This document shows, piece after piece, positions 681 through 41,459 of a stretch of 51,600 bases of DNA. A program made the translations under genes and the position numbers. Location: positions 1-51,600 of the forward strand of contig JAFRUI010000009.1 in the NCBI GenBank assembly GCA_017438945.1, written 5' to 3'. The notes below the pieces were generated by a model. The model had not been told where the DNA came from and made no database searches. It was given only the letters and a program-made list of their open reading frames with translations. Every line of letters begins with the position of its first letter. Within the stretch, counting starts at the first letter, position 1. Source of the stretch: Bacteroidales bacterium. Lineage in GTDB: Bacteria > Bacteroidota > Bacteroidia > Bacteroidales > WCHB1-69.

Positions 681-732
681 AAGGCAAAAGGCAAAAGGCA
701 ATAGGCAATAGGGCCGAGGGTCAAGGGTCAAG
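681..732. repeat. Intergenic 7-base tandem repeat tract
   Basis: Units of the form GGCAAAA / GGCAATA are followed by TCAAGGG-type units, all with a 7-base period. The tract sits directly after the stop of the beta-barrel gene and overlaps the 3' end of a truncated Smr-like reading frame on the other strand. It belongs to the dispersed heptad family described in the findings. Confidence 0.8.
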
Positions 733-816
733 CACCCGCTCGCGAAGGAGTTCCATCGCGTCCTCCACGTACATGCCGTGAAGGTCAATGCGTATAGTAT
801 GGCTGGTTGTAGGCAT
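721..816 (-). pseudogene. Smr-domain fragment (31 codons)
   Basis: A 31-codon ATG-to-TGA frame contains TIRIDLHGMYVEDAMELL, which matches the opening motif of Smr domains (LDLHG followed by a helix beginning with a V-E-A-like pattern). A complete Smr domain needs about 75-85 residues, so only the first strand and helix are present and the catalytic/nucleic-acid-binding remainder is missing. The frame ends where the heptad repeat tract begins, suggesting that the 3' end was replaced or lost. It lies nine bases after the stop of the 345-residue secreted protein on the same strand. It may be a remnant, or a tiny translated ORF. The family call rests on one motif. Confidence 0.5.
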
Positions 817-825
817 GGTTTTGGG

Positions 826-1863
826 TTACTGTTTTCTCCACTCTCCTTCCGCAAAATAGTATTGTCCTGGCGGGAGTTGCACGGAAGGGAGAATCACCTC
901 ACGACGCCAGAATCGGCTGGATAAAGTGATTGTTCGTACTGCGCGGTCGTAGTATGTCCTTGCTTCGCAGAAAGCAGTGTCACGGGTGCTATCGATGACC
1001 ACGGTCGGAAATTCTGGTAGATCGTACATCAGGAAAAGCTCGCGCGACCAAGCCGAGAGGCTGTCCGAATATATGGCGGCAACCACGTCACAAGTGTCAT
1101 TGTTTGACGTGTTGCCGTAGGGAACCTTAAGGCGTATGCAATCGGTGCAGTACAATTCACAATATAAGCCGTTCGAGTGTCGTGTCACACCTTGAATCGG
1201 CTTGAAAAATCTTGCGGGCCACTCTTTTTTGAACTCTTGAATTAAGTTGCTGCACTTCTTCATCTGCTGGTTCAGCACGGTCGTGTCTTTGTGCTCTACG
1301 GCGTAACAGAGACTATCAGCCATCTGCACCAATCGGGCGGTGCGCCCAGATTCCGGCATCCAGGCGGAGGCCAATTTTCTCCAGTGGTTGAAATAGTAGG
1401 TTGTGCCGTCCAAACCAGAATGTTTACTCTCAATATGCGTGGCTGTCATCGTGGCGAGATTGAAAAGCGCGGACAATCTTTTGCAAACCTCTTCAGAAAC
1501 AGACATTTTCTTGACATCCACGGAAACCACCTTCAACGGGTTGGGTTGTCGATCCTGTAGATGTCTGCTCAGAGCCATATAAATGTTCTGGTCCGCTTTT
1601 GTCAAAATCAATTGGTTCTTGCCGATTTCCAGTGCATATTCCGCTGAAAAGGAGGGCGCACAAAGAAAAAATGTCTTATATTCCACGTTCCAAATGACAT
1701 TTCCGCTTTTATCTTCCGGAAACATTAGCTGGAACAGGGTCTCGTCGCCGTGTTTGTTGCTGCTGTATATCCCATACGACTCCGGAGTGAGGAAATCTTG
1801 TGCCCTGCCGCACAATACTGCGGCCAACAACGCGAGAATCAAGGTGGATTTACGCATATTCAT
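826..1863 (-). CDS. Secreted protein of unknown function, 345 aa
   Basis: I do not recognise a family. The protein starts MNMRKST followed by a hydrophobic stretch and a probable signal peptidase I site near GRAQ (residue about 21), so it is exported. The mature part has mixed alpha/beta character with several Cys residues, including a CTDC pair around the middle and a D-x-C-D-V segment. The C-terminal region (LPSVQLPPGQYYFAEGEWRKQ) resembles a beta-rich end. There are two in-frame ATG codons (1863 and 1857); either could be used. An imperfect -7 element (TATCTTCG) lies about 20-30 bases upstream. It is transcribed alone or with the small Smr fragment that follows. Confidence 0.6.
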   Translation of the reverse strand: MNMRKSTLILALLAAVLCGRAQDFLTPESYGIYSSNKHGDETLFQLMFPEDKSGNVIWNVEYKTFFLCAPSFSAEYALEIGKNQLILTKADQNIYMALSRHLQDRQPNPLKVVSVDVKKMSVSEEVCKRLSALFNLATMTATHIESKHSGLDGTTYYFNHWRKLASAWMPESGRTARLVQMADSLCYAVEHKDTTVLNQQMKKCSNLIQEFKKEWPARFFKPIQGVTRHSNGLYCELYCTDCIRLKVPYGNTSNNDTCDVVAAIYSDSLSAWSRELFLMYDLPEFPTVVIDSTRDTAFCEARTYYDRAVRTITLSSRFWRREVILPSVQLPPGQYYFAEGEWRKQ

Positions 1864-1884
1864 AGCGGTTTTCGCTTTGTGCCG

Positions 1885-1892
1885 CGAAGATA
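1885..1892 (-). promoter_or_regulatory. Possible Bacteroidota -7 promoter element
   Basis: TATCTTCG on the minus strand deviates by one base from TAnnTTTG and lies just upstream of the 345-aa secreted protein gene. Confidence 0.4.
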
Positions 1893-1941
1893 CACTTTTT
1901 TAGGACATGTCTTCCTCGTGATCCGTGGAAACATAACCAAA

Positions 1942-1973
1942 ACAGGGTGCGATTTCATTTCACCGCACCCTGT
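1942..1973 (-). terminator. Hairpin downstream of kamA
   Basis: Ten-base perfect stem (ACAGGGTGCG with CGCACCCTGT) around a 12-base loop, between the kamA stop and the start of the next gene. The following T-run is only three bases, so it may be Rho-independent only weakly. Confidence 0.6.
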
Positions 1974-2005
1974 AACTACTAACTGCTAACTACTAACTGC
2001 CAACT
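1974..2005. repeat. Intergenic 7-base tandem repeat tract (AACTACT/AACTGCT units)
   Basis: Four and a half units with 7-base period run directly into the kamA stop codon at 2004-2006. Member of the dispersed heptad family. Confidence 0.85.
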
Positions 2006-3242
2006 ATTTTTTGTGGCGTTTCTTTCTCGCCAACTCGTTGGGCTCCAGTGCCATCTGTTCGCCGTGGAGCAGGGAGGCCACGCCCTCGACGTGCTTCTTG
2101 TCGGGCAGCGGACTGCAGGTGTTCTCCTGATAGTCCTCGGGTTCGGTGTAGGTGGTGATGACGCCTTCATAGTTGCGGAGGATCACCTTGTGCGGGCTCT
2201 GGGAGATGACGTACTGAGGCATCACGGGAATCTTGCCGCCGCCGCCAGGAGCGTCCACCACGAAGGTCGGCACGCAGTAGCCGGAGGTGTGTCCGCGCAA
2301 GTTCTCGATGATCTCGATGCCCTTGGAGACGGGCGTGCGGAAATGCTCCAGACCCATGGAGAGGTCGCATTGGTAGATGTAGTACGGACGCACGCGCATG
2401 CGCACGAGGTCGTGCACGAGCTGCTTCATGATTTCGGTGTCGTCGTTCACGCCGCGCAACAGCACGGTCTGGTTGCCGAGCGGAACACCGGCATCCGCCA
2501 GTTTGGCGCAAGCGGCCATCGCCTCTTCGGTCACCTCGTTCGGGTGGTTGAAGTGCGTGTTGAGCCAAATCGGGTGGTATTTCTTGAGCATGTTGACGAG
2601 ATCGTCAGTGATGCGCTGCGGGCAGACCACAGGGGTGCGGGAGCCCAAGCGGATGATCTCCACATGCGGGATGGCGCGCAGACGTTGGATGATGGACTCG
2701 AGCATCTTGTCGCCCACCATCAAAGCGTCACCGCCGGAAAGCAGGACGTCGCGCACTTGCGGGGTGCGGGCGATGTAGTCGATGGCGGCCTGGATGCGGT
2801 CCTGCGTGGACTCGCAGTCGTGCTGGCCGGCGAAACGTCTGCGAGTGCAGTGACGGCAGTACATCGAGCACATGTCGGTGATAAGGAACAACACTCTGTC
2901 GGGGTAGCGGTGGGTGAGGCCGGGAACCGGGGAGTCCTCATCCTCGTGCAGCGGGTCGAGAAGGTCAGCGGGCGACTGGTGCACCTCCGCGCCGGTCGGG
3001 ATGGCCTGGCGGCGAATCGGGCACTTCGGGTTGTTGGGATCAATCAAGCTCAAGTAGTACGGCGTGATGGCCATACGGAGCGTCTGCAGCGACTTCTTCA
3101 CGCCTTCCTCCTCTTCAGGAGTTAGTTCAATATATTTCTTCAGTTCTTCGAGGGTCTCGATTCTATTGCGGACCTGCCATCTCCAATCGTTCCATTCGGC
3201 GTCGGTAACGTTGGGGAAAAGTTCTTTTCTTCTGCTTGCCAT
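2004..3242 (-). CDS. kamA: Lysine 2,3-aminomutase
   Basis: This radical-SAM, PLP-dependent enzyme converts L-lysine to L-beta-lysine, the first step of the anaerobic lysine fermentation route to butyrate and acetate. At 412 residues it has the usual length. The radical-SAM cluster motif CSMYCRHC places the three cysteines at 125, 129 and 132, and the PLP lysine lies in PGGGGK at residue 337, the same number as in the clostridial enzyme as I recall it. It lies 32 bases behind the threonine dehydrogenase gene with no promoter-like sequence between, so the two are probably co-transcribed. No lysine 5,6-aminomutase or beta-lysine acetyltransferase is visible in the window, so fermentation versus another use of beta-lysine cannot be decided here. 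Confidence 0.95.
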   Translation of the reverse strand: MASRRKELFPNVTDAEWNDWRWQVRNRIETLEELKKYIELTPEEEEGVKKSLQTLRMAITPYYLSLIDPNNPKCPIRRQAIPTGAEVHQSPADLLDPLHEDEDSPVPGLTHRYPDRVLFLITDMCSMYCRHCTRRRFAGQHDCESTQDRIQAAIDYIARTPQVRDVLLSGGDALMVGDKMLESIIQRLRAIPHVEIIRLGSRTPVVCPQRITDDLVNMLKKYHPIWLNTHFNHPNEVTEEAMAACAKLADAGVPLGNQTVLLRGVNDDTEIMKQLVHDLVRMRVRPYYIYQCDLSMGLEHFRTPVSKGIEIIENLRGHTSGYCVPTFVVDAPGGGGKIPVMPQYVISQSPHKVILRNYEGVITTYTEPEDYQENTCSPLPDKKHVEGVASLLHGEQMALEPNELARKKRHKK

Positions 3243-4340: not shown

Positions 4341-4380
4341 ACTAATGACTATAACTATATCTATAACTATAACTATAACT
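4341..4380. repeat. Intergenic 6-base tandem repeat (ATAACT)
   Basis: A run of ATAACT / ATATCT units lies between tdh and tRNA-Pro. It resembles the heptad tracts elsewhere but has a 6-base period. Confidence 0.75.
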
Positions 4381-4459: not shown

Positions 4460-4471
4460 CTGTTTGATTCG

Positions 4472-4545
4472 TCGGGGTGAGAAGACTCGAACTTCCGACC
4501 CCTTGCACCCCATGCAAGTGCGCTAGCCAACTGCGCCACACCCCG
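4472..4545 (-). tRNA. tRNA-Pro (anticodon GGG)
   Basis: A complete 74-base cloverleaf can be folded. It has acceptor arm CGGGGTG/CACCCCG, D-arm GCGC/GCGC, anticodon stem CTTGC/GCAAG with loop ATGGGGT giving GGG, five-base variable loop, and T-arm with TTCGAGT loop. The discriminator base is A; the CCA end is not encoded. The D-arm and variable regions match bacterial tRNA-Pro. A TATCTTTG element lies 16-23 bases upstream and a strong terminator lies downstream, so it is a single-gene transcript. Confidence 0.95.
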
Positions 4546-4762: not shown

Positions 4763-4770
4763 ATAATATT

Positions 4771-4798
4771 GTAGAGACGCACCATGGCACGTCTCTAC
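4771..4798. repeat. 28-bp palindromic intergenic repeat, copy 1
   Basis: Arms GTAGAGACG and CGTCTCTAC enclose a CCATGG core with two mismatched positions between arm and core. It is the same length and has the same arms as copies at 21059, 21142 (diverged arms) and 23433. It lies between the gamma-subunit stop and the operon hairpin. Confidence 0.85.
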
Positions 4799-4804
4799 GG
4801 CAGA

Positions 4805-9168: not shown

Positions 9169-9221
9169 CTTTCTGAAATTTTATGAACTGTCTTTAATTT
9201 TGACGTCACAGGATATCCCTA

Positions 9222-9249
9222 AGCCAATAGCTAACAGCCAACATCCTAC
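9222..9249. repeat. Intergenic 7-base tandem repeat tract (AGCCAAT/AGCTAAC units)
   Basis: Four units with 7-base period run into the stop codon of the alcohol dehydrogenase gene. Member of the dispersed heptad family. Confidence 0.75.
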
Positions 9250-10418
9250 ATACTCTCCTTCAGAATCTCCGTAACATCCTCCGGCTTCAAATCCATATAG
9301 CCTGCAGGATAGCAGATGGTGCCCTCTGTGATGCCGGGAATCATCTCCTCGGTGGCACCGAGCTCACTAATGGTCAGCGGCAGACCGATTTCCAACATCC
9401 AGCTCTTCAAGGCTTCGAGACCGGCTTCGGCAATCTGCTCGTCGGTTTTGCCCTCAGGGCAGACGTTCCAGACATTCTTGGCGAAACGCACAAACTTGGC
9501 CAGACCAGGCTTCATCGCCCGTTTGTAGTAGGCCATGGAGACGGCCGCCAAGCAGAATCCGTGCGGGGCATGTGTCCAAGCACCCACGCTGTGACCGATC
9601 ATGTGTACCATCCAGTCTTGGGTTTTACCGCATTTGAGCAGAGTGTTGAGCGCCCAGGTGGCCGTCCACATGATGTTGGAGCGGGCTTCGTAATCCTGCG
9701 GGTTCTTCACCGCCGTGCGCGAGGAGACGATAAGACTGCGCATCAGCCCTTCGGAGAGGTAGTCGCTGGTGTTGTCGTCGAAATCGGAGAAGTACTGCTC
9801 GAAAATATGGTTCATGATGTCGTAGATGCCCGCTTTCATCTGTTCGTCGGGCACGGTCATCGTGTATTTCGGGTTGAGGATGGAGAATTTCGGCATCAGA
9901 CGGGCGTCGAACACGTGCCCCACCTTGAATTTATGCTCCGCGTCGGTGATTACCGATCCGCCGTTCATCTCCGAGCCGGTGCCCGCCATCGTGAGGATGC
10001 AGCCGATGGGCAGGATGCGTTGGCCAGCGTCGGGATGTTTGCCCTGCAGCCAGAATCTGTCCCAGTAGTCGCCGTCGTAGTACGCCGAAGCGGCCACACC
10101 CTTGGAGTAGTCGCAGACACTGCCGCCGCCGAGGGAGAGGATCATATCGACGTTGTGCTCGCGGGCAATCCTAACACCCTCGTGCAGCTTCTCCAATGTG
10201 GGGTTGCTCATCACGCCCGGGTTCTCCACGATGGTCTTGCCGGCCTCCTTCAGGATGGCCACCACCTCGTCGTAGATGCCGTTTTTCTTCACGCTGCCGC
10301 TGCCGTAGTTCAGCAGCACAACAGGTCCGTAGTTTTTCAATTCGTCCTTGAGATAGTTCAAAGACTCATCACCAAAATAGAGTTTGGTGGGATTATGATA
10401 CGAGAAATTTCCTAACAT
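9246..10418 (-). CDS. Iron-containing alcohol dehydrogenase (BdhA/YqhD type)
   Basis: 390-residue member of the group III metal-dependent alcohol dehydrogenases, which reduce aldehydes to alcohols with NAD(P)H. SLGGGSVCDYSKGVA is the nucleotide-phosphate binding region. The metal ligands are visible as an Asp and His in GIYDIMNHIFEQY and two His in MIGHSVGAWTHAPHG. The start MLGNFSYHNPTKLYFG is typical of the butanol-dehydrogenase/YqhD subgroup. It probably disposes of reducing equivalents during fermentation or detoxifies aldehydes. The gene is monocistronic, with a TATTTTTG element about 20-28 bases upstream. Confidence 0.9.
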   Translation of the reverse strand: MLGNFSYHNPTKLYFGDESLNYLKDELKNYGPVVLLNYGSGSVKKNGIYDEVVAILKEAGKTIVENPGVMSNPTLEKLHEGVRIAREHNVDMILSLGGGSVCDYSKGVAASAYYDGDYWDRFWLQGKHPDAGQRILPIGCILTMAGTGSEMNGGSVITDAEHKFKVGHVFDARLMPKFSILNPKYTMTVPDEQMKAGIYDIMNHIFEQYFSDFDDNTSDYLSEGLMRSLIVSSRTAVKNPQDYEARSNIMWTATWALNTLLKCGKTQDWMVHMIGHSVGAWTHAPHGFCLAAVSMAYYKRAMKPGLAKFVRFAKNVWNVCPEGKTDEQIAEAGLEALKSWMLEIGLPLTISELGATEEMIPGITEGTICYPAGYMDLKPEDVTEILKESM

Positions 10419-10574: not shown

Positions 10575-12905
10575 TCAATCGCGAAGACAACGGACGGAGA
10601 AACCGAGCCGCTTGTACCAACTCGTTCTTCTCACACCTATATCACTGAAATACAGTTGGCGGTATATTGCGAAGTTTCCGTCCCTCTGTGTTGAAGACCA
10701 AAAATGCGTGTTTTCTCCTGAAGAGAAAAAACCTGCGCCACCCCAGTTGCCAACTGAAACTGCGGAAAATCCCGATGCATTATGCCAAGGATAACCTGCA
10801 TTGCCAGGGGAGTTTTCGTAGGGCGAAGCATTCCAATAGTCTCCTGCCAATCTGCCTGCATGGTCACCGCGCAAACCCAAATTTGTTATGTCCATCTCCG
10901 TTTGCGTGGCCTCCATCACGGTCCATTCCGCATCACTCGGCACATGCCAACCCGTAGGGCAGACACCCTGCACGCCACTTGGAACGCTTGAGCTACTATT
11001 AGCCCCATTCATCACCGCATGCCAGGTGTAGTAGTAACCTCGAACCTCTAATGGAACGTTCGAGGTGCTGTTGTCATAGTAAAAGGATGCGTAATCGTTG
11101 AAGTTCTCTCCGCTGCCAGCAGGTACTGCCGTTCCGTCCGCATAATGTGTGGTGCGGAGATTTTCCCGCATCCAACATTGATCACCAATTTGTACCGTGT
11201 TATAGGTATTGCCATCATAATCGGTCACGAAAGGGGTTTCCGGACATGGGCCCGCAGGCAGCACAGGCTTCACCATTACATCTTCATCAATGTCAAAGAC
11301 CAGTTCCCATTCGGTCACCCAACCATTGTCCGATTGTACGCCGTCAACGATTTCAATGCTCCAAATCCCATTTTTTGGACATCCAACCAAATTGGAGAAA
11401 GAGCCTTCCGGATGGAACACGTTGGTCATCGCCGCCACATTCGAGGAATCCATGCGATTATCACTGTTCACATTGCTTCCAGAATAGACATAACCGTCAG
11501 AATTGTACTGATATCCATTATTTGTATTGTTCGACCAAACATAGTTCCACGGAGTCCCCATCGGATTTGAATCCTGATTACACGGATTGCTCCATAAATC
11601 CTGGGAAGCGCGCATTCCGAAATCGGAACTATTGGATCCCGTTGAAAGCCACCCCCATTCCGATTCTGGAATGGCACTTACGCATCCAGACGTGGATGTA
11701 CTATTATATTTTCGTAAAATGGACGAATATTGTCCATTCGGACAATGAAGTGCAATCCACAAATCCCCTACGTACGAATGCTCGATTTTCAACCGTACAA
11801 ATCCGATGTCGTTAGCGCTCTGTATAATGTCAGAAGCAGAGAAATCTGTAACGTTCACCAATGACACATAAGCGCATCCGTTTCCGCAATCCATGCCATC
11901 GGCTAAGAATACGGTGTCTATTTGCGTATAAGATTGGGATAAGCGAAACCGAAATTCATTGCCATAGGTTGTACCACATTCACCAGTGGCGTAAGATCTT
12001 ACATAATACCATTTTTTGGGGTTTAACTCTTCCAAGATACTAGAAAAACTCCCCGAACCGATTCCTTCCACCGTGTGGTTGTTTGCTACGGTAGGGTGCG
12101 GAAGGGCATCCCAACAGAACCCGCATGCATCCACATCTTCACTTGACGTCAGCGTCCCATAGCAAAGTGCTCTCGAGGAATTGTCTGAAGTCACAGAGTC
12201 TGTTGTGACTGTCATAAGACTTGACGGATCTATGATAAATTGCAGCTGAATATCTTCACTGATGTACTGCTCCTTGGTCATCGCTTCACTCTGCAACATC
12301 ATACTGTTTTTGGAGGCAAATCCGGTGTACCGCATCTTATCACCCAAATCAAAATCATGTGAGGAAATGCTTTTCAAATTCACCCACGCCGCCTTCTCGG
12401 AATTGCCGGCGGCCCGGATTCGGTTGGCACCCGCATGGCCCTTGTTGACCATCTTCAAACTGCGAGTGCCCGATGGGATGGTCACCGACAATACATACAC
12501 CTGCGGGGTGGTCGCGGTAATCTCAAAAAAATTGTTTCCACAGACGATTTTTCCAGTGTACTCCGCACTCTTTTTGCCATTAACATCAACCAAAACAATT
12601 GTTATTGGTCCGTCTTGGGCAGAAAAGATGTTGACGCGTGTCTGTCCATCGAAGGGGGTTGGCATCACTTGCATATCCCCATCCTGGTCAAAACCTCTGA
12701 TTCCCGTACCTATCTCCAACGTATAAACGGTGTCTGGGAAAAAGAGGGTTTCCGACCAACCGCGGGTAATGTTCTCGACAGTGACACTGTCTATCCGTAT
12801 ATAATGGTCACATTGGTCAACGCCCGTGAAAAACAGGTCTATTGTCTCCTGAGCGTGAATAGACAACGAAAACAGCATCATTAATACAAGTCCTACCTTT
12901 TTCAT
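10575..12905 (-). CDS. Secreted FISUMP protein with P-domain, 776 aa
   Basis: Large exported protein. Order: signal peptide (MKKVGLVLMMLFSLSIHAQ); a beta module with VENITRGWSETLFFPDTVYTL; a domain at about residues 78-152 starting MQVMPTPFDGQTRV and ending RSLKMVN, which looks like a T9SS type-A sorting domain but is N-terminal; an FN3-like module (about 233-323, GFCWDALPHPTVANN...YVRSYATGECGTTYGNEF); a proprotein-convertase P-type domain (about 325-540, RLKIEHSYVGDLWIAL... NGIWSIEIVDG); and a C-terminal FISUMP domain (about 557-776, GDQCWMRENLRTTHYADGT ... GFSVRCLRD). The frame opens earlier at a TTG, but that region overlaps the promoter, so I chose ATG 12905. It is a smaller paralogue of the protein at 16849-20982. 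Likely cell-surface or secreted; binding partner unknown. Confidence 0.85.
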   Translation of the reverse strand: MKKVGLVLMMLFSLSIHAQETIDLFFTGVDQCDHYIRIDSVTVENITRGWSETLFFPDTVYTLEIGTGIRGFDQDGDMQVMPTPFDGQTRVNIFSAQDGPITIVLVDVNGKKSAEYTGKIVCGNNFFEITATTPQVYVLSVTIPSGTRSLKMVNKGHAGANRIRAAGNSEKAAWVNLKSISSHDFDLGDKMRYTGFASKNSMMLQSEAMTKEQYISEDIQLQFIIDPSSLMTVTTDSVTSDNSSRALCYGTLTSSEDVDACGFCWDALPHPTVANNHTVEGIGSGSFSSILEELNPKKWYYVRSYATGECGTTYGNEFRFRLSQSYTQIDTVFLADGMDCGNGCAYVSLVNVTDFSASDIIQSANDIGFVRLKIEHSYVGDLWIALHCPNGQYSSILRKYNSTSTSGCVSAIPESEWGWLSTGSNSSDFGMRASQDLWSNPCNQDSNPMGTPWNYVWSNNTNNGYQYNSDGYVYSGSNVNSDNRMDSSNVAAMTNVFHPEGSFSNLVGCPKNGIWSIEIVDGVQSDNGWVTEWELVFDIDEDVMVKPVLPAGPCPETPFVTDYDGNTYNTVQIGDQCWMRENLRTTHYADGTAVPAGSGENFNDYASFYYDNSTSNVPLEVRGYYYTWHAVMNGANSSSSVPSGVQGVCPTGWHVPSDAEWTVMEATQTEMDITNLGLRGDHAGRLAGDYWNASPYENSPGNAGYPWHNASGFSAVSVGNWGGAGFFSSGENTHFWSSTQRDGNFAIYRQLYFSDIGVRRTSWYKRLGFSVRCLRD

Positions 12906-12928
12906 CTTGATGAATGGTTTCAAAGTTG

Positions 12929-14540: not shown

Positions 14541-14610
14541 TTAATGGTTATAGGTTATTGGTTATAGGTTATTGAAGCAGGTTATAGTTAATGGCCAACA
14601 GCTAATAGCT
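14541..14610. repeat. Intergenic 7-base tandem repeat tract (GGTTATA/GGTTATT units)
   Basis: Fills the whole gap between the pRiA4b-like start and the YebC stop. It changes from GGTTATT-like units to the opposite-sense CCAACAG/CTAATAG-like units at its right end. Confidence 0.85.
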
Positions 14611-15400: not shown

Positions 15401-15430
15401 CAATTTTTTGAGATAGGCGTGAGATTTTTT

Positions 15431-15507
15431 TTGGCTGTTAGCTTTTGGCTTTTAGCCTTTGGCCTTGGGTAATGCTAATAGCTAACAGCCAATAGCCAAT
15501 AGCTAAT
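15431..15507. repeat. Intergenic heptad tract folded as an inverted repeat
   Basis: The left end TTGGCTGTTAGC (15431-15442) is perfectly complementary to GCTAACAGCCAA (15481-15492); 7-base GGCTTTT-like units fill the middle and CAATAGC units the right end. The tract runs into the stop codon (15503-15505) of the neighbouring minus-strand gene. Confidence 0.85.
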
Positions 15508-16219: not shown

Positions 16220-16220
16220 T

Positions 16221-16317
16221 TGTTAATGGTTATTGGTTATGGGTTATTGGTTATTGAGGTTTAATGGTTAATGGTTATTGTTTATTGAGGTTTGGTGGTT
16301 AAGGTTTAAGGTTCAAA
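16221..16317. repeat. Intergenic 7-base tandem repeat tract (GGTTATT/GGTTAAT units)
   Basis: Nearly 100 bases of GGTTATT, GGTTATG, GGTTTAA and related units separate tsaE from the 238-aa gene, starting two bases from its ATG. Member of the dispersed heptad family. Confidence 0.9.
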
Positions 16318-20982: not shown

Positions 20983-21010
20983 TGCTTCTGCTTTTGTTGA
21001 TTTGATTTGG

Positions 21011-21018
21011 CAAAAGTA
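21011..21018 (-). promoter_or_regulatory. -7 promoter element of the 1377-aa FISUMP gene
   Basis: TACTTTTG on the minus strand, exact match; it overlaps the alternative upstream start and therefore argues for ATG 20982. Confidence 0.65.
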
Positions 21019-21058
21019 CATAAATTACGAATATACACAGACAGATAAAATTGATGCT

Positions 21059-21086
21059 GTAGAGATGTTTCATGAAACGTCTCTAC
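21059..21086. repeat. 28-bp palindromic intergenic repeat, copy 2
   Basis: Arms GTAGAGATG and CGTCTCTAC around a TTTCATGAAA core. Same length as copies at 4771 and 23433 but with a different palindromic core. Confidence 0.85.
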
Positions 21087-21141
21087 AATTTCAGAGGAAA
21101 GATATATAAATTCTGAATACGCTGGCCAATAGGGTTGTACT

Positions 21142-21169
21142 GTAGAAACGTTTCGCGCAACGTTTCTAC
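21142..21169. repeat. 28-bp palindromic intergenic repeat, copy 3
   Basis: Arms GTAGAAACG and CGTTTCTAC around a TTTCGCGCAA core. The G-to-A and C-to-T changes in the two arms compensate each other, keeping the stem. It lies 55 bases from copy 2 and 3 bases from the MATE stop. Confidence 0.85.
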
Positions 21170-21172
21170 TTG

Positions 21173-22522: not shown

Positions 22523-22543
22523 GAACGACAGTTCCTATTCTAA

Positions 22544-23407
22544 TTACAAATTACTAATTTCTAATTGAACTATCCGTTCCATCGGATCCCCCGCAATTTC
22601 CCCGATTTTGCATCCTGCCGTTTCCGCCGCCTCACGTAAAATCTCCTCGAAGTGCGCCGCCACGGAACCTGTGAAGTGCCACGGAAGATTATCGCAGTTG
22701 GGATAGTAGCTCTTTTGCTTGGCAAAAAAGGTCTCAAAAGCGTTGATTATCAGCTCTCGGATAGCGGGCTCTTCACGAAATTCATTCAAGAACGGCGCAA
22801 ACTGTGACAAGAATAGGTTGGGCTTCGGCTCCTGATAGAGCTTGTGAAGGATGAGGTCGCGGTTAATGTGGTAGCGTTCCTCGAAAGCCGTGCGGATGGA
22901 GTGGGGGAGTGTTTCCGAAAGGTAGGCAGTGACAAGGCACTTGCCGAGGTGCGTGCCGCTGCCTTCGTCGCCGAGCAGCCAGCCGAGGGAGGGAGCGCGC
23001 CCGATCATCTCGTGACCGTCGTAGTGACAGGAGGCCGCGCCGGTGCCGAGGATGCAGACGATGGCCTCGTGCCCGCCCGCCAAGGCGTGACAAGCGGCCA
23101 TCAGGTCCGACCAGACTCGTATGTCAGCAGTCGGGAAATACATTTGCAGGTAGCTCTCCATGCGGAAGGCGTTCTGCGGGGTAGCGCAACCGGCTCCGTA
23201 ATAGTCTATCTCTCTGATGCTTACCTCTTTCGGAAATTGTGGCGCTGCTTCTCCCAATATGCACAGTATGTCCGCTTCAGACGTGTAGTTGGCGTTGATG
23301 CCGTCGCACTGGCAACGGAATACACCGCCGTCATACAGCAGCGCGAAGGCCGTCTTGGTGCCGCCCGCATCGATGAGGAGATGGGAATGTCGTGATGGTT
23401 GGTTCAT
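22544..23407 (-). CDS. BadF/BadG-type sugar kinase (N-acetylglucosamine kinase-like)
   Basis: 287-residue ASKHA-fold ATPase. LLIDAGGTKTAFAL at residues 10-24 is the phosphate-1 motif, CILGTGAASCHYDG and GWLLGDEGSGTHLGK are the phosphate-2 and sugar-side motifs characteristic of the BadF/BadG/BcrA family members annotated as GlcNAc or MurNAc kinases. It probably phosphorylates amino sugars recovered from peptidoglycan or glycans. The adjacent L,D-transpeptidase gives mild support for a cell-wall link. Length is normal. Confidence 0.8.
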   Translation of the reverse strand: MNQPSRHSHLLIDAGGTKTAFALLYDGGVFRCQCDGINANYTSEADILCILGEAAPQFPKEVSIREIDYYGAGCATPQNAFRMESYLQMYFPTADIRVWSDLMAACHALAGGHEAIVCILGTGAASCHYDGHEMIGRAPSLGWLLGDEGSGTHLGKCLVTAYLSETLPHSIRTAFEERYHINRDLILHKLYQEPKPNLFLSQFAPFLNEFREEPAIRELIINAFETFFAKQKSYYPNCDNLPWHFTGSVAAHFEEILREAAETAGCKIGEIAGDPMERIVQLEISNL

Positions 23408-23432
23408 GCCGTTTTATTTTGACATTGCCGAT

Positions 23433-23460
23433 GTAGAGACGTGCCATGGCGCGTCTCTAC
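23433..23460. repeat. 28-bp palindromic intergenic repeat, copy 4
   Basis: Arms GTAGAGACG and CGTCTCTAC with a TGCCATGGCG core (one wobble pair). It touches the last base of the nadE stop codon and would form a hairpin at the 3' end of the nadE message, so it could serve as terminator or processing stem. Confidence 0.88.
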
Positions 23461-24303: not shown

Positions 24304-24423
24304 TTTAAGTTTAATGTTTAATGTTCAAAGTTTAAAGTTTAAGTCTAAGTCATAGTTATACAGTCAACAGTCAACAGTCAACAGTCAACAGCCAACAGCC
24401 AATAGCCAACAGCCAACAGCTAG
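24304..24423. repeat. Intergenic 7-base tandem repeat tract (GTCAACA/GCCAACA units)
   Basis: The clearest member. TTTAAGT / TTAATGT / TTAAAGT units fill the left half; four GTCAACA units and five GCCAACA/GCCAATA-like units fill the right half. It spans the whole gap between nadE and the L,D-transpeptidase stop. Confidence 0.92.
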
Positions 24424-26313
24424 CTAATCATCCGGATTCTTCAATAAATACAGAATGTTTCCGTCTTTGTAATAGACATCGTCGCGGTACTGCACGGTGC
24501 CGTCGTCACCCACGAAGCAGGTGTAGTACTCGATGAAGAGCGGGATGGGCTTGCGCAGGGCGACGCTGGTGGGACGTAACTTCCGGTAGAACTGCTTGTC
24601 CCAGTCGCTGAGATTTTCATAGTAGATGGAGTCCTTCTCGTGCAGCTTTTCGACGAATTCCTCACCTTTTTCGGTGGTGGGCTCCGCACCGGAGATGATG
24701 TGCAACTGTTCGGTATAGATGGTGTCAAAACCGTTGACGGTGTAAATCCACTCAGCCACGCTGTCGGGATGCTGCACCCGCACGCAGCCGTGACTCAACG
24801 CCCGCTTGCGACGCTTGAACGCCCCTTTATTGTTGGTGTCGTGCAAATAGACGGATTCGGAGTTGGCGAACACGAACTTGTAGAGTCCCAGCGCGTTGTA
24901 GCGACCAGAGGTCTGGTGCAGGCGATAGGGGATGTTTCCTTGACTCACTTTGCTCCAGTTGATAGAGTCGGGCACGACATACTTCCCAGTGCGGCTGTCA
25001 CGGATGTAGAGATGCTCGCGGTTGACCACCGCCGTGTTGCTGCGCACGAGTTTGTGGTAGTATTCGTTCTTGATGATGTCGTAAGGGATGTTCCATTCGG
25101 GATTGAGTACAAGTGTCCGTATCTGGCTGTACATCAGCGGGGTTTCGGCCTTGAAAGGAGTGATGATGCCGTTTTTGTGCCGCGCAGGTACCTTTTCGGG
25201 GTTTTGGGTCTTGCCGCAGCAAATCCGGTTCCGCATCACCACCGAGTCCTTCTGCACCACGCAAAGCGTGTAGTCGGGGATGTTGACCGCGATGTGGAGC
25301 GTGTCATCGGATTTCCGATGCTTTTTCTGCCAACGTAGCCGTTCGAGGTTGGCGGCAACCGCGTCTTTGTAGTATTGCAGCGGACGGTTCAGCTTTTCGA
25401 TGGTCTCAGCATCGAGAGAGTCACATTCCGGGATGCCATTCATGCGACGGAAGGCGTTGAGGGCTTGCAGGACAGTGTCGTTCAAGATGTTGCTGCCGTT
25501 CACGGAGATGCCGAGTTGGTTCAGCCGTCCGCAAAGTTTCTGCAGATGCGCACTGTGACCGTCTTTGCGCACACGGAAGTCGGGAACCACGGTCTCCACA
25601 GAATCGGAGAGTGCATGCAGTCGTTTTAATTCTTTCTGAAGAGATTGGTATTCAGAAGATGCTGGCACTGATTCCGAAATTATCTTGGAAAAACGATACA
25701 TGTTTTCGAGTGCGTTTTGGATGAAGGCGGAGTCGGGTGAGAGGGTTGCGTAGTACCATTTGTTGCCATGGACAACCTTGGGTGCCACAGCTCCATATTG
25801 CAACGCACAGGCATAGCGCAAATATTGCTTAGTGAGCTGACGTTCAAGATGATAGAGGTACGGATAAAGTGAATTGTCGTTGGGGACTTGATGTTCTACA
25901 AGCTGTGAGATGCTGTGGCGGAGGCTATCCAGCCCGAAGTATTCGGCCGGGATGCCGTGGAGGGGGTAGGCGTTTTCAAGATTAGAGAGCAACGTGTCGG
26001 TGAGGGTTTCCTGCAATCCTTTTTGCGTCCAGAACGGGTGGTGGTTTCGCATGCGGTAGAACTCCCGGGTCAACGCATTCGTCAATGACGAGTCATTTTC
26101 GTTGTCTATTTGGCTTTCAATATACTCGATGTAATCCTTTTCGTTATAGTGCGTGTAATGCTTGAACCAGTGCGGTTGCGGTTGCACATGCTCCTTCCGC
26201 TGGCATCCGCCGAACAAGACAAGAAAGGCGAGCGAAACCGCCAAGATGCAGCATAAAACGACCATGGCAGCTGGAATCTGATTCCGTAGATGGGATAGTA
26301 TGTTTTTCAACAT
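24424..26313 (-). CDS. L,D-transpeptidase lipoprotein (YcbB type)
   Basis: 629 residues. The N-terminus has a long hydrophobic segment ending in the lipobox LFGGC (Cys 37). An alpha-helical N-terminal region and a peptidoglycan-binding-like segment (CGRLNQLGISVNG...LNAFRRMNGIPE) lead to the YkuD catalytic domain, with SHGCVRV carrying the nucleophilic Cys near residue 508. The arrangement matches YcbB/LdtD enzymes, which make 3-3 crosslinks in peptidoglycan or attach proteins in the periplasm. A TATTTTTG element lies about 42 bases upstream. It heads the run ldt-nadE-kinase-MATE, but the heptad tract separates it from nadE. Confidence 0.9.
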   Translation of the reverse strand: MLKNILSHLRNQIPAAMVVLCCILAVSLAFLVLFGGCQRKEHVQPQPHWFKHYTHYNEKDYIEYIESQIDNENDSSLTNALTREFYRMRNHHPFWTQKGLQETLTDTLLSNLENAYPLHGIPAEYFGLDSLRHSISQLVEHQVPNDNSLYPYLYHLERQLTKQYLRYACALQYGAVAPKVVHGNKWYYATLSPDSAFIQNALENMYRFSKIISESVPASSEYQSLQKELKRLHALSDSVETVVPDFRVRKDGHSAHLQKLCGRLNQLGISVNGSNILNDTVLQALNAFRRMNGIPECDSLDAETIEKLNRPLQYYKDAVAANLERLRWQKKHRKSDDTLHIAVNIPDYTLCVVQKDSVVMRNRICCGKTQNPEKVPARHKNGIITPFKAETPLMYSQIRTLVLNPEWNIPYDIIKNEYYHKLVRSNTAVVNREHLYIRDSRTGKYVVPDSINWSKVSQGNIPYRLHQTSGRYNALGLYKFVFANSESVYLHDTNNKGAFKRRKRALSHGCVRVQHPDSVAEWIYTVNGFDTIYTEQLHIISGAEPTTEKGEEFVEKLHEKDSIYYENLSDWDKQFYRKLRPTSVALRKPIPLFIEYYTCFVGDDGTVQYRDDVYYKDGNILYLLKNPDD

Positions 26314-27381: not shown

Positions 27382-27420
27382 ATGTTCATCAGAAATTATA
27401 AACATCAAAAACTTTGCATT

Positions 27421-28011
27421 ATGGGAAAATTTGAATTGATTACGCTGCCGTATGCGGCAAATGCCCTGGAACCTGTTATCTCCGCACAGACCATCGGCTT
27501 TCATCACGGCAAACATCTGCAAGGATATGTCAACAATCTGAATGCGGCCATCGAAGGCACGCCTTTTGCCAATAAGGATTTGGTGGAGATTGTGAAGACG
27601 GCTGCCGGCGGGATGCTTAATAATGCCGGCCAGATTCTGAACCATAACCTCTATTTCCAGCAGTTCCGCAGCCCCGTTGCCGACAACAAACCTTCGGGTA
27701 AACTTGCGGATGCCATTGACGCGCAATTCGGCTCTTTTGAGGAGTTCCAGAAAGCGTTTGTACAGGCCGGTGCCACGTTGTTCGGCTCGGGTTGGGTATG
27801 GCTCTCCGCCGATGCAGACGGTAAACTAGTTGTCACGCAAGAAACCAACGCGGCAAACCCAGTGCAGAAGGATCTACGTCCGCTGCTGACCTTCGATGTG
27901 TGGGAGCACGCCTATTATCTGGATTATCAGAATCGTCGTCCTGACCACCTCAATGCGCTGTGGCAGATTGTGGACTGGAACGTGGTGGAAGGAAGGTATA
28001 TGGGCTATTAG
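27421..28011 (+). CDS. sodB: Superoxide dismutase (Fe/Mn family)
   Basis: 196 residues. Metal ligands are visible as the first His in FHHGKHLQGYVNNLN (about residue 28), His in LNHNLYFQQF, and Asp and His in FDVWEHAYYLDYQNRRPDHL. The open frame begins at 27382, but those 13 extra codons are not family-like, and ATG 27421 gives the normal start MGKFELITLPYAANALEPVIS. The LFGSGWVWL segment is compatible with an iron or cambialistic enzyme, as usual in anaerobic Bacteroidota, where it protects against transient oxygen. Convergent with the DUF4295 gene across a shared hairpin. Confidence 0.95.
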   Translation: MGKFELITLPYAANALEPVISAQTIGFHHGKHLQGYVNNLNAAIEGTPFANKDLVEIVKTAAGGMLNNAGQILNHNLYFQQFRSPVADNKPSGKLADAIDAQFGSFEEFQKAFVQAGATLFGSGWVWLSADADGKLVVTQETNAANPVQKDLRPLLTFDVWEHAYYLDYQNRRPDHLNALWQIVDWNVVEGRYMGY

Positions 28012-28026
28012 CTGTTGGCTGTTGGC
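28011..28026. repeat. Two heptad units after the sodB stop
   Basis: GCTGTTGGCTGTTGG follows directly on the TAG stop of sodB. It is the shortest member of the heptad family and resembles the complement of CCAACAG units elsewhere. Confidence 0.6.
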
Positions 28027-28068
28027 GGCGCCTACATTAGCACAAGTCAGGCGATCTGCCAGTAAAAC

Positions 28069-29633: not shown

Positions 29634-29670
29634 GTTTAAAGGTTTAAAGGTTAGAGGGATAGAAGGGTTA
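29634..29670. repeat. Intergenic 7/8-base repeat tract (GTTTAAAGG units)
   Basis: Short tract in the obgE leader, GTTTAAAG units followed by GGTTAGAGGG; a weaker member of the heptad family. Confidence 0.55.
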
Positions 29671-38975: not shown

Positions 38976-38989
38976 ATTTTCGATTTTAG

Positions 38990-39014
38990 ACTTAAGTCCC
39001 AAGTCTCAAGTCTT
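38990..39014. repeat. Intergenic 7-base tandem repeat tract (AAGTCCC/AAGTCTC units)
   Basis: Three units running into the CoA-transferase stop codon. Member of the dispersed heptad family. Confidence 0.75.
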
Positions 39015-39657
39015 ACTTCACGATATAATCAACATAAATTCCCGGGGTGTGGATTTGTTCCATCGGGATGGAGCCGGTGGGAACCAGTTCCTTGGTTTCC
39101 AGAATCACCAGGTCGGCGGCGGCGGCCATCATGGGGTTGAAGTTCTGGGTTGTGCCTTTGTAGATGGCGTTGCCCATTTCGTCGCAGATGCTGGCGCCAA
39201 TGATGGCGACGTCGGCGTGGAGAGGCAGTTCCAGCAGGTATTCCTTGCCGTCGACTTCGATTTTGCGTTTGCCGTTCTCCACCACGGTGCCGAGACCGGT
39301 CTGGGTGAGGACACCGCCGAGACCAGCTCCGCCGCAACGGATGCGTTCAGCGAGGGTCCCCTGAGGGCAGAATTCGATTTCGAGAGTTTTCTCGTTCAGC
39401 TGTTGGATGGTGTCCGCATTGGTGCCGATGTGGGAGGCGTAAAGCTTTTTCACCTGCTTGTTGGCAATCAACATGCCGATGAATTTGTTGGGGTATGCGG
39501 TGTCGTTGCAGATCAAGGTGAGATCCTTAACCCCTTTGTTGGCAATGGCTTCCACCATTTTCACACCCGTACCGGCGCCCAAGAAACCACCGATCATCAA
39601 GGTCATTCCGTCTTTCACATGCGCAACTGCGTCTTCAATAGAAATTAATTTGCTCAT
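39013..39657 (-). CDS. CoA-transferase subunit A (acetate/butyrate-acetoacetate type)
   Basis: 214 residues, complete. LISIEDAVAHVKDGMTLMIGGFLGAGTG carries the conserved N-terminal CoA-binding GGF region, and the remainder (CPQGTLAERIRCGGAGLGGVLTQTGLGT, GASICDEMGNAIYKGTTQNFNPMMAAAADLVILE) fits the alpha subunit of acetate/acetoacetate CoA-transferases. The catalytic glutamate is carried by the B subunit, which is not next to it: downstream is an unrelated secreted protein and upstream the promoter region. It must pair with a B subunit encoded elsewhere. Function fits the end of the lysine or butyrate fermentation path. Confidence 0.9.
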   Translation of the reverse strand: MSKLISIEDAVAHVKDGMTLMIGGFLGAGTGVKMVEAIANKGVKDLTLICNDTAYPNKFIGMLIANKQVKKLYASHIGTNADTIQQLNEKTLEIEFCPQGTLAERIRCGGAGLGGVLTQTGLGTVVENGKRKIEVDGKEYLLELPLHADVAIIGASICDEMGNAIYKGTTQNFNPMMAAAADLVILETKELVPTGSIPMEQIHTPGIYVDYIVK

Positions 39658-39698: not shown

Positions 39699-39706
39699 CA
39701 AAAATA
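39699..39706 (-). promoter_or_regulatory. -7 promoter element of the CoA-transferase gene
   Basis: TATTTTTG on the minus strand, 42 bases upstream of the ATG, divergent from nadB. Confidence 0.55.
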
Positions 39707-39741
39707 CATTTTTTTTATTACGATTTGCAAATAGCGGAGGT

Positions 39742-39753
39742 GAATAATTATTC
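39742..39753. promoter_or_regulatory. Perfect 12-bp palindrome in the nadB/CoA-transferase divergent promoter
   Basis: GAATAATTATTC, flanked by partly complementary GGAG/CTCC. It lies upstream of the nadB -7 element and between the two divergent promoters, a position suited to an operator. No regulator can be named. Confidence 0.4.
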
Positions 39754-39772
39754 GCTCCTACAAAAAAAAATG

Positions 39773-39780
39773 TACCTTTG
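39773..39780 (+). promoter_or_regulatory. -7 promoter element of nadB
   Basis: TACCTTTG on the plus strand, exact TAnnTTTG match, 27 bases upstream of the ATG. Confidence 0.65.
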
Positions 39781-39806
39781 CACCCGAATATTCATTAAGT
39801 GAGATT

Positions 39807-41381
39807 ATGCGTAAAGAAGTAGATTTTTTGGTGATCGGTTCAGGCATTGCCGGACTGTGTTTCGCCCTGAAGGCCGCCAATTTCGGCAAAGTCTGCATGG
39901 TTACAAAGGCGAAGATGGACGACGGCTCCACGCGCTATGCGCAAGGTGGTATCGCGTCTGTCATCTATAAGCCAGATACTTACGAAAAGCATATAGAGGA
40001 CACGATGGTGGCCGGCGACGAGCTTTCCGACCGCCACATCGTGGAGCTGACCATCCGCGAAGCCACCGAACGCGTGATGGAGCTGGTGCAGTGGGGGGTG
40101 GATTTCGACAAGAATCAGGACGGCAGTTTCGCCCTCGGCAAAGAGGGAGGACACTCGATGAACCGTATTCTGCACCACAAGGACATCACCGGCTATGAAA
40201 TTGAGCAGAAGCTGATTTTGGCCGCACGGAAGAACCCGAACATCGAGATTTACGAAGACCGGCTGGCAGTGGAGATCATCACCCAGCACCATCTCGGTGT
40301 GGAGGTGAATCGCCGCACGCCCGATATCACCTGCTACGGCGCATACGTCTATAATCCTGAATCCAAGAAGATACATACCATCCTTGCCAAGGTGACGATG
40401 ATGGCCACCGGCGGTCTTGGAATGGTCTATGAGCACACCACCAACCCGGTGGTGGCCACCGGTGACGGCGTGGCAATGGTCTATCGTGCCAAGGGCGTGG
40501 TGCGTGGCATGGAGTTCATCCAGTTTCACCCGACCTCCTTGTATAACCCCAAAGAGTCGCCCTCGTTCCTCATCACCGAAGCCATGCGCGGCGCTGGCGC
40601 CATCCTGCGCGACGCCAACGGGGTGGCTTTCATGGAGAAATATGACGCGCGCGGATCCCTCGCACCTCGCGACATCGTGGCCCGCGCCATCGACTCCGAG
40701 ATGAAACAGCAGGGCGTGGATCATGTCTTTCTCGACACCTCGCCCATTCCACAAAAAGAGATTTTCGAGCATTTCCCCAATATTTACGCCAAATGTCTGA
40801 GCATCGGTATTGACATTACCAAGGAGATGATTCCGGTGGTGCCGGTGGAGCATTATTCCTGCGGCGGTATTCAGACCGACGAGTGGGGGGCGACCTCCAT
40901 CCGGAACCTATATGCTTCCGGTGAGTGCGCGTCCACAGGACTTCATGGTGCCAACCGTCTGGCATCCAATTCGTTGCTTGAGGCGTTGGTCTTTTCACAC
41001 CGCGCCTGTATCCGTGCGGTGGAGGATCTGCCCAACATCCAGTTCTGCCACGACGTGCCCGACTGGAACAGTGAGGGCACCGTCCTTAACGAGGAAATGG
41101 TGCTCATCACGCAGGAACGCAAGGAGTTGCAGACCATTATGAGTAGCTATGTCGGCATTGTGCGCTCCGACCTGCGCCTGCAGCGCGCTTTCGACCGTCT
41201 CGAAATCCTCTATCGTGAAACGGAGGACCTCTACAAGAAGTCCATCCTCAACCCCGAAATCTGCGAGTTGCGTAACCTTATCAATATCGGCTACCTCATC
41301 GTGCGTCACGCCATGGCCCGCAAGGAAAGCCGCGGCTTGCACTACTCCCTTGACTATCCCCCTCATTCAATTAAGAATTAA
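39807..41381 (+). CDS. nadB: L-aspartate oxidase
   Basis: 524-residue FAD enzyme that oxidises L-aspartate to iminoaspartate, first step of de novo NAD synthesis; in anaerobes fumarate serves as acceptor. GSGIAG at residues 11-16 is the FAD dinucleotide-binding motif; YAQGGIASV, the HSMNRILHHKD segment, TGGLGMVYEHTTNP, EFIQFHPTSLY and the SCGGIQTD..G motif are all family features. The usual partners nadA and nadC are not here. The heptad tract begins two bases after the stop. Confidence 0.95.
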   Translation: MRKEVDFLVIGSGIAGLCFALKAANFGKVCMVTKAKMDDGSTRYAQGGIASVIYKPDTYEKHIEDTMVAGDELSDRHIVELTIREATERVMELVQWGVDFDKNQDGSFALGKEGGHSMNRILHHKDITGYEIEQKLILAARKNPNIEIYEDRLAVEIITQHHLGVEVNRRTPDITCYGAYVYNPESKKIHTILAKVTMMATGGLGMVYEHTTNPVVATGDGVAMVYRAKGVVRGMEFIQFHPTSLYNPKESPSFLITEAMRGAGAILRDANGVAFMEKYDARGSLAPRDIVARAIDSEMKQQGVDHVFLDTSPIPQKEIFEHFPNIYAKCLSIGIDITKEMIPVVPVEHYSCGGIQTDEWGATSIRNLYASGECASTGLHGANRLASNSLLEALVFSHRACIRAVEDLPNIQFCHDVPDWNSEGTVLNEEMVLITQERKELQTIMSSYVGIVRSDLRLQRAFDRLEILYRETEDLYKKSILNPEICELRNLINIGYLIVRHAMARKESRGLHYSLDYPPHSIKN

Positions 41382-41382
41382 C

Positions 41383-41459
41383 AATCACCAATCACCAATC
41401 ACTAATCACTAATCACTATACCCCAGCATCAATAACCCATAACCCCTAACCAATAACCA
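41383..41459. repeat. Intergenic 7-base tandem repeat tract (AATCACC/AATCACT, TAACCAA units)
   Basis: Five ATCACCA/ATCACTA units, then CAATAACCC / ATAACCC / CTAACCA units, filling the gap between nadB and the next ATG. Confidence 0.9.

Follow-up and report, generated by a model that had tools for sequence, protein, structure and literature searches.

Dispersed families of seven-base tandem repeats between the genes of a Bacteroidales genome

Results

Period-7 arrays of the window and of its genome

The gaps between genes in a 51,600-nucleotide stretch of Bacteroidales DNA, hereafter the window, contain arrays of tandem repeats with a unit of 7 nt (heptads), which are the subject of this study. 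The window (G000:C11:1-51600) belongs to a genome, G000, of 1.86 Mb in 44 contigs that is 63% complete. The nearest named YebC records come from Bacteroidales metagenome genomes, one with the label sheep rumen and several labelled 'RUG', which we take to be rumen genomes. Genes were predicted with a simple dicodon gene finder, purpose-written, which found 608 genes in 796 kb of G000, and the repeat features of the window are collected in Table 1.

An earlier reading of the sequence alone had listed eleven gaps with period-7 arrays and a 6-base relative near 4341. Tandem Repeats Finder recovered nine of the eleven, with starts at 681, 1973, 14546, 15429, 16218, 24307 and 24360, 28003, 38994 and 41383; the tract at 9222 stayed below the score limit and the one at 29634 has a period of 8. 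The 6-base relative was correctly described, since the tract at 4348 has period 6. This ACTATA array occupies 4348-4380 and 4471-4545, near a tRNA-Pro (GGG) gene, and period-6 tracts resembling ATAGTCATAGTT are found again in other gaps, in part adjoining heptad arrays. No G-quadruplex motif was found in the window arrays, the single one of the window starting at 2901, within gene 2004-3242.

Table 1. Repeat features of the window (positions and gene coordinates in the window)
Feature	Position	Strand	Remarks
AGGCAAH-word array	675..732	+	abuts stop codon of gene 2-676; continues into AGGGTCA tract
GTTAGYA-word array (TAACTAC/TAACTGC on +)	1973..2006	-	at stop of minus-strand gene 2004-3242
Degenerate RGCTNTT tract, about 3 units, below array threshold	9221..9245	-	just past stop of gene 9246-10418
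HATAACC cassette GCTTC-AATAACC-TATAACC-AATAACC-TATAACC-ATTA, sense	14541..14578	-	ATT end 6 nt ahead of start of gene 13931-14536
Short RGCTNTT tract	14593..14608	-	abuts stop of yebC (14609-15334)
Distal arm (AAAAGCC, gene sense) of RGCTNTT inverted pair	15429..15466	-	L019 has no pair
Stop-side arm (TAGCTATTGGC, gene sense) of inverted pair	15470..15507	-	contains stop codon of gene 15503-16219
HATAACC cassette and degenerate copies	16220..16287	-	immediately ahead of start of gene 15503-16219
AATTACT array	22540..22566	+	overlaps 3' end of gene 22544-23407
Gap with palindrome	23408..23459	.	GTAGAGACG palindrome in window and L020
AAACTTT-type array	24304..24342	-	start side of gene 23460-24293
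RGCTNTT/GACTGTT array	24357..24424	-	abuts stop of gene 24424-26313
RGCTNTT array	28003..28028	+	begins within last codons of gene 27382-28011
GACTTGA array	38990..39015	-	past stop of gene 39013-39657
AATCACY array	41376..41421	+	directly past stop of nadB (39807-41381)
Degenerate HATAACC cassette	41430..41460	+	ahead of ATG at 41465

On the scale of the genome, arrays were counted at a strict threshold in the first 443 kb of G000 taken (47.4 kb intergenic and 396 kb coding). At lag 7 there are 53 intergenic arrays, against a mean of 0.0 in 20 shuffles of the intergenic pieces, and 9 coding ones; the other lags gave 6 intergenic arrays (lag 6), 9 (lag 8), 16 (lag 14) and 0-4 for the remaining lags from 3 to 24. 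Dispersed, mostly intergenic period-7 arrays are thus real and are not a property of shuffled sequence. A relaxed threshold, applied to 796 kb, yielded 185 arrays, of which 152 are intergenic. The statement of the sequence-only reading that none occurs inside a gene is nearly right: in the window, the stretch 22542-22566 and the array at 28003 run over the ends of genes, and in the larger sample 33/185 arrays overlap predicted coding sequence by at least half, many of these at gene edges or in weakly predicted genes and some well within genes. Eight arrays of several words, mostly about 1.7-1.9 kb apart, lie at G000:C25:211797-218860 and C2:57878-63366, in or near weakly predicted genes near contig ends; those at C25:213655, C2:57878 and C2:63336 are identical in sequence.

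In samples of loci from five groups of relatives, lag 7 leads in all five. The two nearest groups have 2.0 arrays per kb of intergenic DNA; the density is 0.54 in the remainder of the group with at least 88% YebC identity, 0.68 in the group with 76-77% and 0.19 at 63-71%. Lag 7 also leads in the genomes G013, G020 and G056; G034, of the same genus as G000, has no arrays in 6.6 kb of intergenic DNA. In G056, from another family of the order, other period-7 words were seen in the 67 kb examined, and one of our backward controls, CGATAACCGATAACCGA, has 191 matches (at most 2 mismatches), which suggests a separate heptamer word in another family. An assembly artefact could be invoked on the ground that the genome of the window is incomplete and fragmented, but identical words occur in other assemblies, and misassembly is excluded as a general cause because many further assembled genomes contain such arrays, as do orthologous gaps. 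Its probability is negligible, and the arrays are not limited to one contig.

A limited set of words

The unit had been described as free in sequence, which proved mistaken. The 152 intergenic arrays have 58 distinct consensus units, and these collapse, at one mismatch, to 26 leaders, the largest with 41 arrays. Each word has mostly fixed positions and one to three variable ones, to which its variation is limited; in HATAACC, H stands for A (55% of cases), C (34%) or T (11%), and the other six bases are 96-99% fixed. Whole-genome counts were made of exact matches, overlapping ones included, alongside a backward control: in G000, HATAACCx3 has 120 matches (control 1) and RGCTNTTx3 has 115 (control 0). 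We set aside a coverage figure of 14 words for 141/152 and 181/190 arrays, since its loose distance limit would let most random units through. An early idea, that of a purine/pyrimidine grammar RRYYRYY, was dropped because several words do not fit.

The vocabulary differs between lineages. For comparison we used a relative, G013, of which 885 kb were taken and to which the locus L021 belongs, and 40 genomes of the genus, which were searched for exact words and for protein families. Against the 796 kb of G000, runs number 6 vs 25 in G013 for GRTTTDC, 11 vs 32 for GACKTDR and 11 vs 3 for CATAATK, and the ratio of exact HATAACC to RGCTNTT matches goes from 71:1 in G007 and 146:7 in G012 to 19:272 in G009 and 36:325 in G062. 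Single words thus wax and wane independently of one another, although over the 40 genomes the two counts are correlated (rho 0.55); in 5/40 neither word was matched exactly.

Inside arrays the order of the variable letters is random overall, with 159 same-neighbour pairs vs 159.4 expected in G000 and 171 vs 167.5 in G013. This speaks against block duplication, which would not yield such an order; the uniform unit drift and block-wise duplication of a slippage microsatellite were not seen overall. Single words deviate: same-neighbour pairs are too rare for GTTCAAD in G000 (z -2.3) and GTTAGYA in G013 (z -2.2), and units two apart are alike for GTTCAAD in G000 (z 2.1) and AGGCAAH in G013 (z 2.3). 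Given the recurring words and the position-restricted variation, a purely length-dependent process, as had been proposed, is insufficient.

Gene edges and the reading frame

The arrays had been noted to lie close to stop codons, and this holds for the genome: among the 152 arrays there are 76 stop contacts (10 nt or less) vs 41.5 +/- 4.7, with a maximum of 55, in 1000 random placements within the same gaps. For the 71 genes concerned, identity at lag 7 climbs from about 0.4 just ahead of the stop codon to 0.59 over the codon itself and as much as 0.93 immediately past it, on a background of about 0.3. In the window and the 23 relatives shown, the YebC protein has 240-243 residues, its C-terminus keeping its place, and its stop is TAG or TAA, varying with the tract that follows; gene 15503-16219 ends in AAC-TGA in an array-less relative and in AAT-TAG in the others. 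Since in both genes the stop varies with the tract, the exchanged piece includes the stop codon.

Orientation is biased as well. Start-side arrays avoid ATG in sense (10 in sense vs 52 in antisense in G000, 13 vs 52 in G013) and more often have stops in all three frames in sense than in antisense (29 vs 9 of 35 in G000, 28 vs 15 of 45 in G013). The latter bias is driven by HATAACC, start-side arrays without this word showing no significant one (p = 0.51, 0.26). On the stop side, the arrays of other words show the same tendency, with 33 vs 22 of 55 in G000 (p = 0.058) and 27 vs 11 of 53 in G013 (p = 0.0026); no significant bias is found in all stop-side arrays together (p = 0.65, 0.31) because the stop-side HATAACC copies have the opposite orientation. 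One explanation could be that the HATAACC cassette described below acts as a frame-independent barrier to translation, which would halt at gene edges the ribosomes running through from the upstream gene: since each unit has a TAA and 7 = 1 mod 3, three consecutive units shut all three frames directly ahead of the following start. Against this stand the absence of bias in the start-side arrays of other words and in the pooled stop-side arrays, and also the fact that the rule leaves the preference for 7 over 5, 8 or 10 unexplained, so that such a role seems unlikely. The orientation bias may be functional, may stem from arrays being seeded at the stop codon, or may come about because harmful orientations are avoided.

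The HATAACC cassette

HATAACC occurs in a cassette form, GCTTC-(HATAACC)x4-ATTA, a non-coding element of 38 nt placed in sense ahead of starts or in antisense at stops. Among the copies preceded by CTTC or CCTC, exactly four units are present in 28/35 (G000) and 19/24 (G013), the first unit being AATAACC in 35/35 and 22/24. Taking all HATAACC runs, GCTTC stands directly ahead of 24/36 in G000 and 13/32 in G013, and ATT directly after 33/36 and 27/32. The elements are in sense at a start in 23/35 cases and in antisense at a stop in 10/35 in G000 (18/32 and 11/32 in G013); among the G000 arrays near starts, 18 of this class are in sense and 1 in antisense. In 55/62 cases the gap separates co-directional genes. 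Where the cassette meets a stop, its ATT end is at -2 in 13/21 cases and no more than 2 nt away in 20/21, and the TAA stop is therefore typically the complement of the cassette end.

With at most 2 mismatches the full cassette was found 59 times in G000. In 394 other Bacteroidota genomes, none of this genus, two genomes gave one match each, to plain AATAACC-type arrays; HATAACCx3 is present in 22/40 genomes of the genus, in which the full cassette was not sought. No common function emerged from the 20 proteins of cassette-bearing genes that were scanned, out of 31 distinct ones in 32 entries; they go from LepA and TyrRS to peptidases, one having no Pfam match, and this diversity speaks against a regulon. 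Nor are the cassettes terminal repeats of a transposon (copies at both ends in no gene of G000 and in one of G013), and a search for a phage origin gave eight weak matches only (E 0.2 or more). A higher-order repeat of 31 nt made of HATAACC-like units lies at 16220-16313 in the window, with a 76-nt expansion in L020.

In the 20 orthologous gaps of G000 and G013 with a cassette, it is on the same strand in both genomes in 15, in G000 only in 4 and in G013 only in 1. Its fixed positions diverge at 4/236 (1.7%) and its variable one at 8/40 (20%), to be compared with 4.3, 1.9 and 20.8% for positions 1, 2 and 3 of the flanking codons. The cassette thus behaves as a constrained element with a neutral variable position, its fixed positions diverging like second and its variable one like third codon positions.

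Turnover between relatives

Between G000 and G013 we compared 201 orthologous gaps, of which 44 have arrays in both genomes, 16 in G000 only, 13 in G013 only and 128 in neither. As differences in unit number are whole units by construction, raw gap lengths were used. Copy-number change, suspected earlier, is apparent: the difference is exactly -7 in 7, +7 in 1 and 0 in 7 of the 73 array gaps, whereas of the 128 array-free gaps 54 have the same length and a single one differs by exactly 7 nt in either direction. Since there is one genome per species, these 7-nt steps are cross-species. An illustration from the window is the inverted pair at 15429-15507, which has one 7-mer fewer in each arm in L020.

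Words are also replaced. In 200 gaps (one empty sequence left out), 69 contain words: 37 share word and strand, 9 share none, and 23 have words on one side only (G000 10, G013 13); this comparison is built so that fixed positions of the reference array always match, which the divergence counts given below avoid. The GACTTGA array at 38990..39015 is replaced in G013 by an inverted pair of another, CGATTTT-like word, and the nadB gap there has a GAATTAA array at the stop followed by AATCACT units. By eye, the word is swapped on both arms of an inverted pair at G000 C25:151308 and C25:8607, and an array in one genome faces a GTAGAGACG palindrome in the other at window 23408 and C25:199974; flank identity in these four gaps is 84-95%. 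In the gap 23408..23459, L022 has a CAGTTAGCAGTTAG tract and L021 an AGGCAAT-word array, without the palindrome.

The GTAGAGACG...CGTCTCTAC palindromes, found in the window at about 4770-4800 and at 23408-23459 (with related ones in the gap 20983-21172), are genus-wide. Exact-arm copies number 42 in G000 and reach 244 in G012, and their counts correlate with those of HATAACC (rho 0.76, 40 genomes). That palindromes and arrays exclude each other as occupants of a gap was not significant (p = 0.35 and 0.18).

Divergence, also that given above for the cassette, was counted in a set that favours conserved gaps, those below 75% identity or with a length difference above 60 being left out. In 24 alignable array gaps, 22/578 fixed positions, 30/195 variable positions and 170/2559 positions in the rest of the gap differ; with G013 as reference (20 gaps) the figures are 21/548, 26/157 and 153/2140.

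These data bear on the possibility that the arrays are neutral microsatellites, born locally by slipped-strand replication of a polymerase that slips preferentially at 7 nt, drifting afterwards and tolerated between genes. Such an origin would agree with the lead of lag 7 in five groups, sparser in distant Bacteroidales, and in G013, G020 and G056 (G034 having none), with the 7-nt length steps, with the first unit often overlapping the stop codon as though seeded there, and with some neighbour similarity in single words. We nevertheless hold it to be rather unlikely, because identical words are found at tens of loci, variation is limited to particular positions, units are not in blocks overall, HATAACC mostly keeps four units and fixed ends, and orientation is biased.

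Clear inverted pairs were seen at window 15429-15507, in L024, and at G000 C29:12746 and C17:10241. Among 133 arrays, 19 have an inverted match at a score of at least 12, 8 a direct and 3 a reversed one, but over all of them inverted and direct scores are not shifted against each other (Wilcoxon p = 0.75). Matched-word pairs are inverted vs direct in 5:3 (G000) and 8:2 (G013), neither significant alone, and 13 vs 5 when the genomes are summed, for an expectation of 5.5 vs 5.8. Inverted pairs are a tail of cases and not the rule, which speaks against the hairpin as a general form of the arrays.

It could also be that all words are functional gene-boundary elements under selection, as binding sites or as RNA elements acting in translation on the start side and as stem-loops on the stop side. 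The codon-like divergence of HATAACC, its persistence on the same strand in most orthologous gaps, its sense orientation near starts and the inverted pairs that, by eye, changed on both arms point this way. Against it, 32 of the 69 gaps with words share none or are one-sided, cassette-bearing genes are functionally diverse and inverted pairing is not general, so that we hold selection on all words to be rather unlikely too.

Candidate machinery

No dedicated array-writing enzyme was found among the two families, RVT_1 and Y1_Tnp, searched in the 40 genomes of the genus. An enzyme copying 7-base steps had been envisaged; it could be a reverse transcriptase, or an enzyme like telomerase, that adds 7-nt units from a template whose edge corresponds to the variable position. 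Telomerase-like copying yields a random order of variable letters and one degenerate position, and the overall randomness of our arrays and the single degenerate position of several words would, by analogy, fit. RVT_1 is present in 9/40 genomes, with one match each in the array-rich G006, G009 and G013, but is not found in G000 (63% complete) nor in the array-rich G020 (99%) and G026 (97%). A reverse transcriptase is therefore unlikely as the writer, and, as many words also coexist in one genome, templated addition as a whole is highly improbable.

Another possibility, to which we give little probability, is that REP-associated tyrosine transposases (RAYT) mobilise the arrays as a cargo resembling repetitive extragenic palindromes (REP). 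Y1_Tnp was found in 36/40 genomes, the genomes G015, G033 and G034 lack both Y1_Tnp and exact matches of either word, and RAYT number correlates with the word counts (rho 0.41 and 0.37). However, genome size does so at least as well (rho 0.66 and 0.39), G060 lacks Y1_Tnp yet has 22 RGCTNTT matches, and G029 and G035 have Y1_Tnp yet no matches. Nor were arrays present at the RAYT loci examined, four in number, of which two included 900-bp flanks and the others spanned 3.3 kb each; a REP-like repeat would flank the transposase gene there. The RAYT genes at G000:C29:43260-43604 and G013:C1:270141-270485 lie amid short GC-rich repeats, of AACCCCGTCAGGGGTT type in G000 and AGCTCGGTAGG type in G013, which are perhaps their own REP elements.

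Among the other genes of the window, those at 10575-12923 and 16849-21021 encode large FISUMP-domain proteins, the second with a below-cutoff match to a type IX secretion system (T9SS) sorting domain.

Discussion

On balance, we find it somewhat probable that the arrays are families of heptad words which spread by copying, are resized by slippage and survive at gene edges, and that HATAACC is in addition constrained. Each family is one 7-base word. Arrays or units would pass from one locus to another through template switching, for instance, or through gene conversion between similar arrays, and such copying could keep the vocabulary small and lineage-specific, with slipped-strand replication, perhaps favoured at 7 nt, changing array length. 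Coding constraint would purge arrays within genes, leaving them to accumulate at stop codons, which they often overlap and may supply, and orientations with spurious ATGs would be lost upstream of starts. The HATAACC cassette would have become, or would always have been, a constrained gene-edge element. Slippage alone is insufficient in view of the shared words, the bias in variable positions and the orientation.

Several points weigh against this proposal. Copying between loci is deduced and not directly observed, and flank is shared beyond the unit only for HATAACC, of which under half the G013 runs have GCTTC. A saturated, unconstrained variable position would also yield a random order of units. 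Moreover, DGTGAWY has an excess of alike neighbours in G000 as well as in G013 (z 2.1, 2.0), and in G000 the alternate units of HATAACC (z 2.1) and of GATAATK (z 2.5) are alike, as block slippage would give. Start-codon contacts are not enriched in the same 152 arrays and 1000 placements (35 vs 35.7 expected). Outside HATAACC, fixed positions diverge at 18/342 (5.3%), near the 6.6% of the rest of the gap, and variable ones at 22/155 (14.2%), so that constraint or homogenisation is unsupported for these words. Finally, gene calls come from a home-made finder and the data are cross-species, with one genome for each species.

What is most tangible is the cassette: a non-coding element of 38 nt whose fixed positions are conserved like second codon positions and which is able to supply a stop codon is a concrete gene-edge element. 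In addition, the preference of bacterial intergenic repeats for heptamers has been noted since 2007, with polymerase slippage merely suggested as a mechanism in the literature available, and the 40 genomes of the genus, with many words of differing histories, make slippage, copying and selection separable through orthologous gaps.

Among the top-listed papers of our searches, which covered only a minority of subscription journals, none deals with these words or with heptamer families of several words in Bacteroidales. The view that Bacteroidota have no described counterpart was partly wrong, however: TAACTGA direct repeats are reported from Beggiatoaceae, cyanobacteria and five Bacteroidetes, with other heptamers nearby in some of the latter (MacGregor 2015, PMC4679880). 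As described there, they are intergenic and often stand in sense just ahead of start codons, the functions of the downstream genes show no pattern, indels between two Cyanothece strains are mostly of 7 nt, and variants of the word with one base changed seldom form direct repeats in the genome examined (PMC4679880). The start-side sense placement is common to HATAACC, TAACTGA being one word, at least in that account, and TAACTGA x2 has 0 occurrences in the 796 kb of G000 and the 885 kb of G013. Paludibacter, among the five Bacteroidetes listed, is presumably a member of the Bacteroidales. Among short tandemly repeated repetitive (STRR) sequences of cyanobacteria, Calothrix is reported to have three heptamer words in one genome (cited in Rehm et al. 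2015, PMC4692102). The cyanobacterial words, so far as cited, are others than ours and are not known to overlap stop codons or to be constrained, and the Nostoc word GGGGAYT x2 is not in the stretches of G000 and G013 searched. Heptamers are over-represented among long simple sequence repeats with units of 5-11 nt according to Mrazek 2007, to whom both of the papers that we cite credit the slippage hypothesis (via PMC4679880 and PMC4692102); that class, as cited, concerns unit length, whereas here word identity, ends and orientation are structured.

The nearest match is provided by the GGGAATC/GGGANTN heptamers of Xanthomonas: two genomes carry 186 and 183 tracts, dispersed and to 89-93% intergenic; four units are commonest, the tracts are nearer the end of the upstream gene, many form inverted pairs, and prominent lengths are not kept between species (Rehm et al. 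2015, PMC4692102). Tandem runs of GGGAATC and GGGGAYT number 0 in both G000 and G013, and those of GGGANTN 1 and 3. Our arrays are likewise dispersed as many, mostly intergenic tracts per genome, with fixed and variable positions in the unit, a mode of four units and a place near the upstream gene end; inverted pairs occur too, as a tail of cases. In Xanthomonas, as far as the published account at hand goes, one G-tract word was studied for G-quadruplexes, whereas many AT-richer words are present here in one genome; a cassette end that forms a stop codon, a measured constraint and, in the window, arrays lacking a G-quadruplex motif further set our case apart. A few other bacteria thus have similar repeats, though apparently none with so many words in one genome, and the arrays described here are an unusually rich form of a known but unexplained kind of heptamer repeat.

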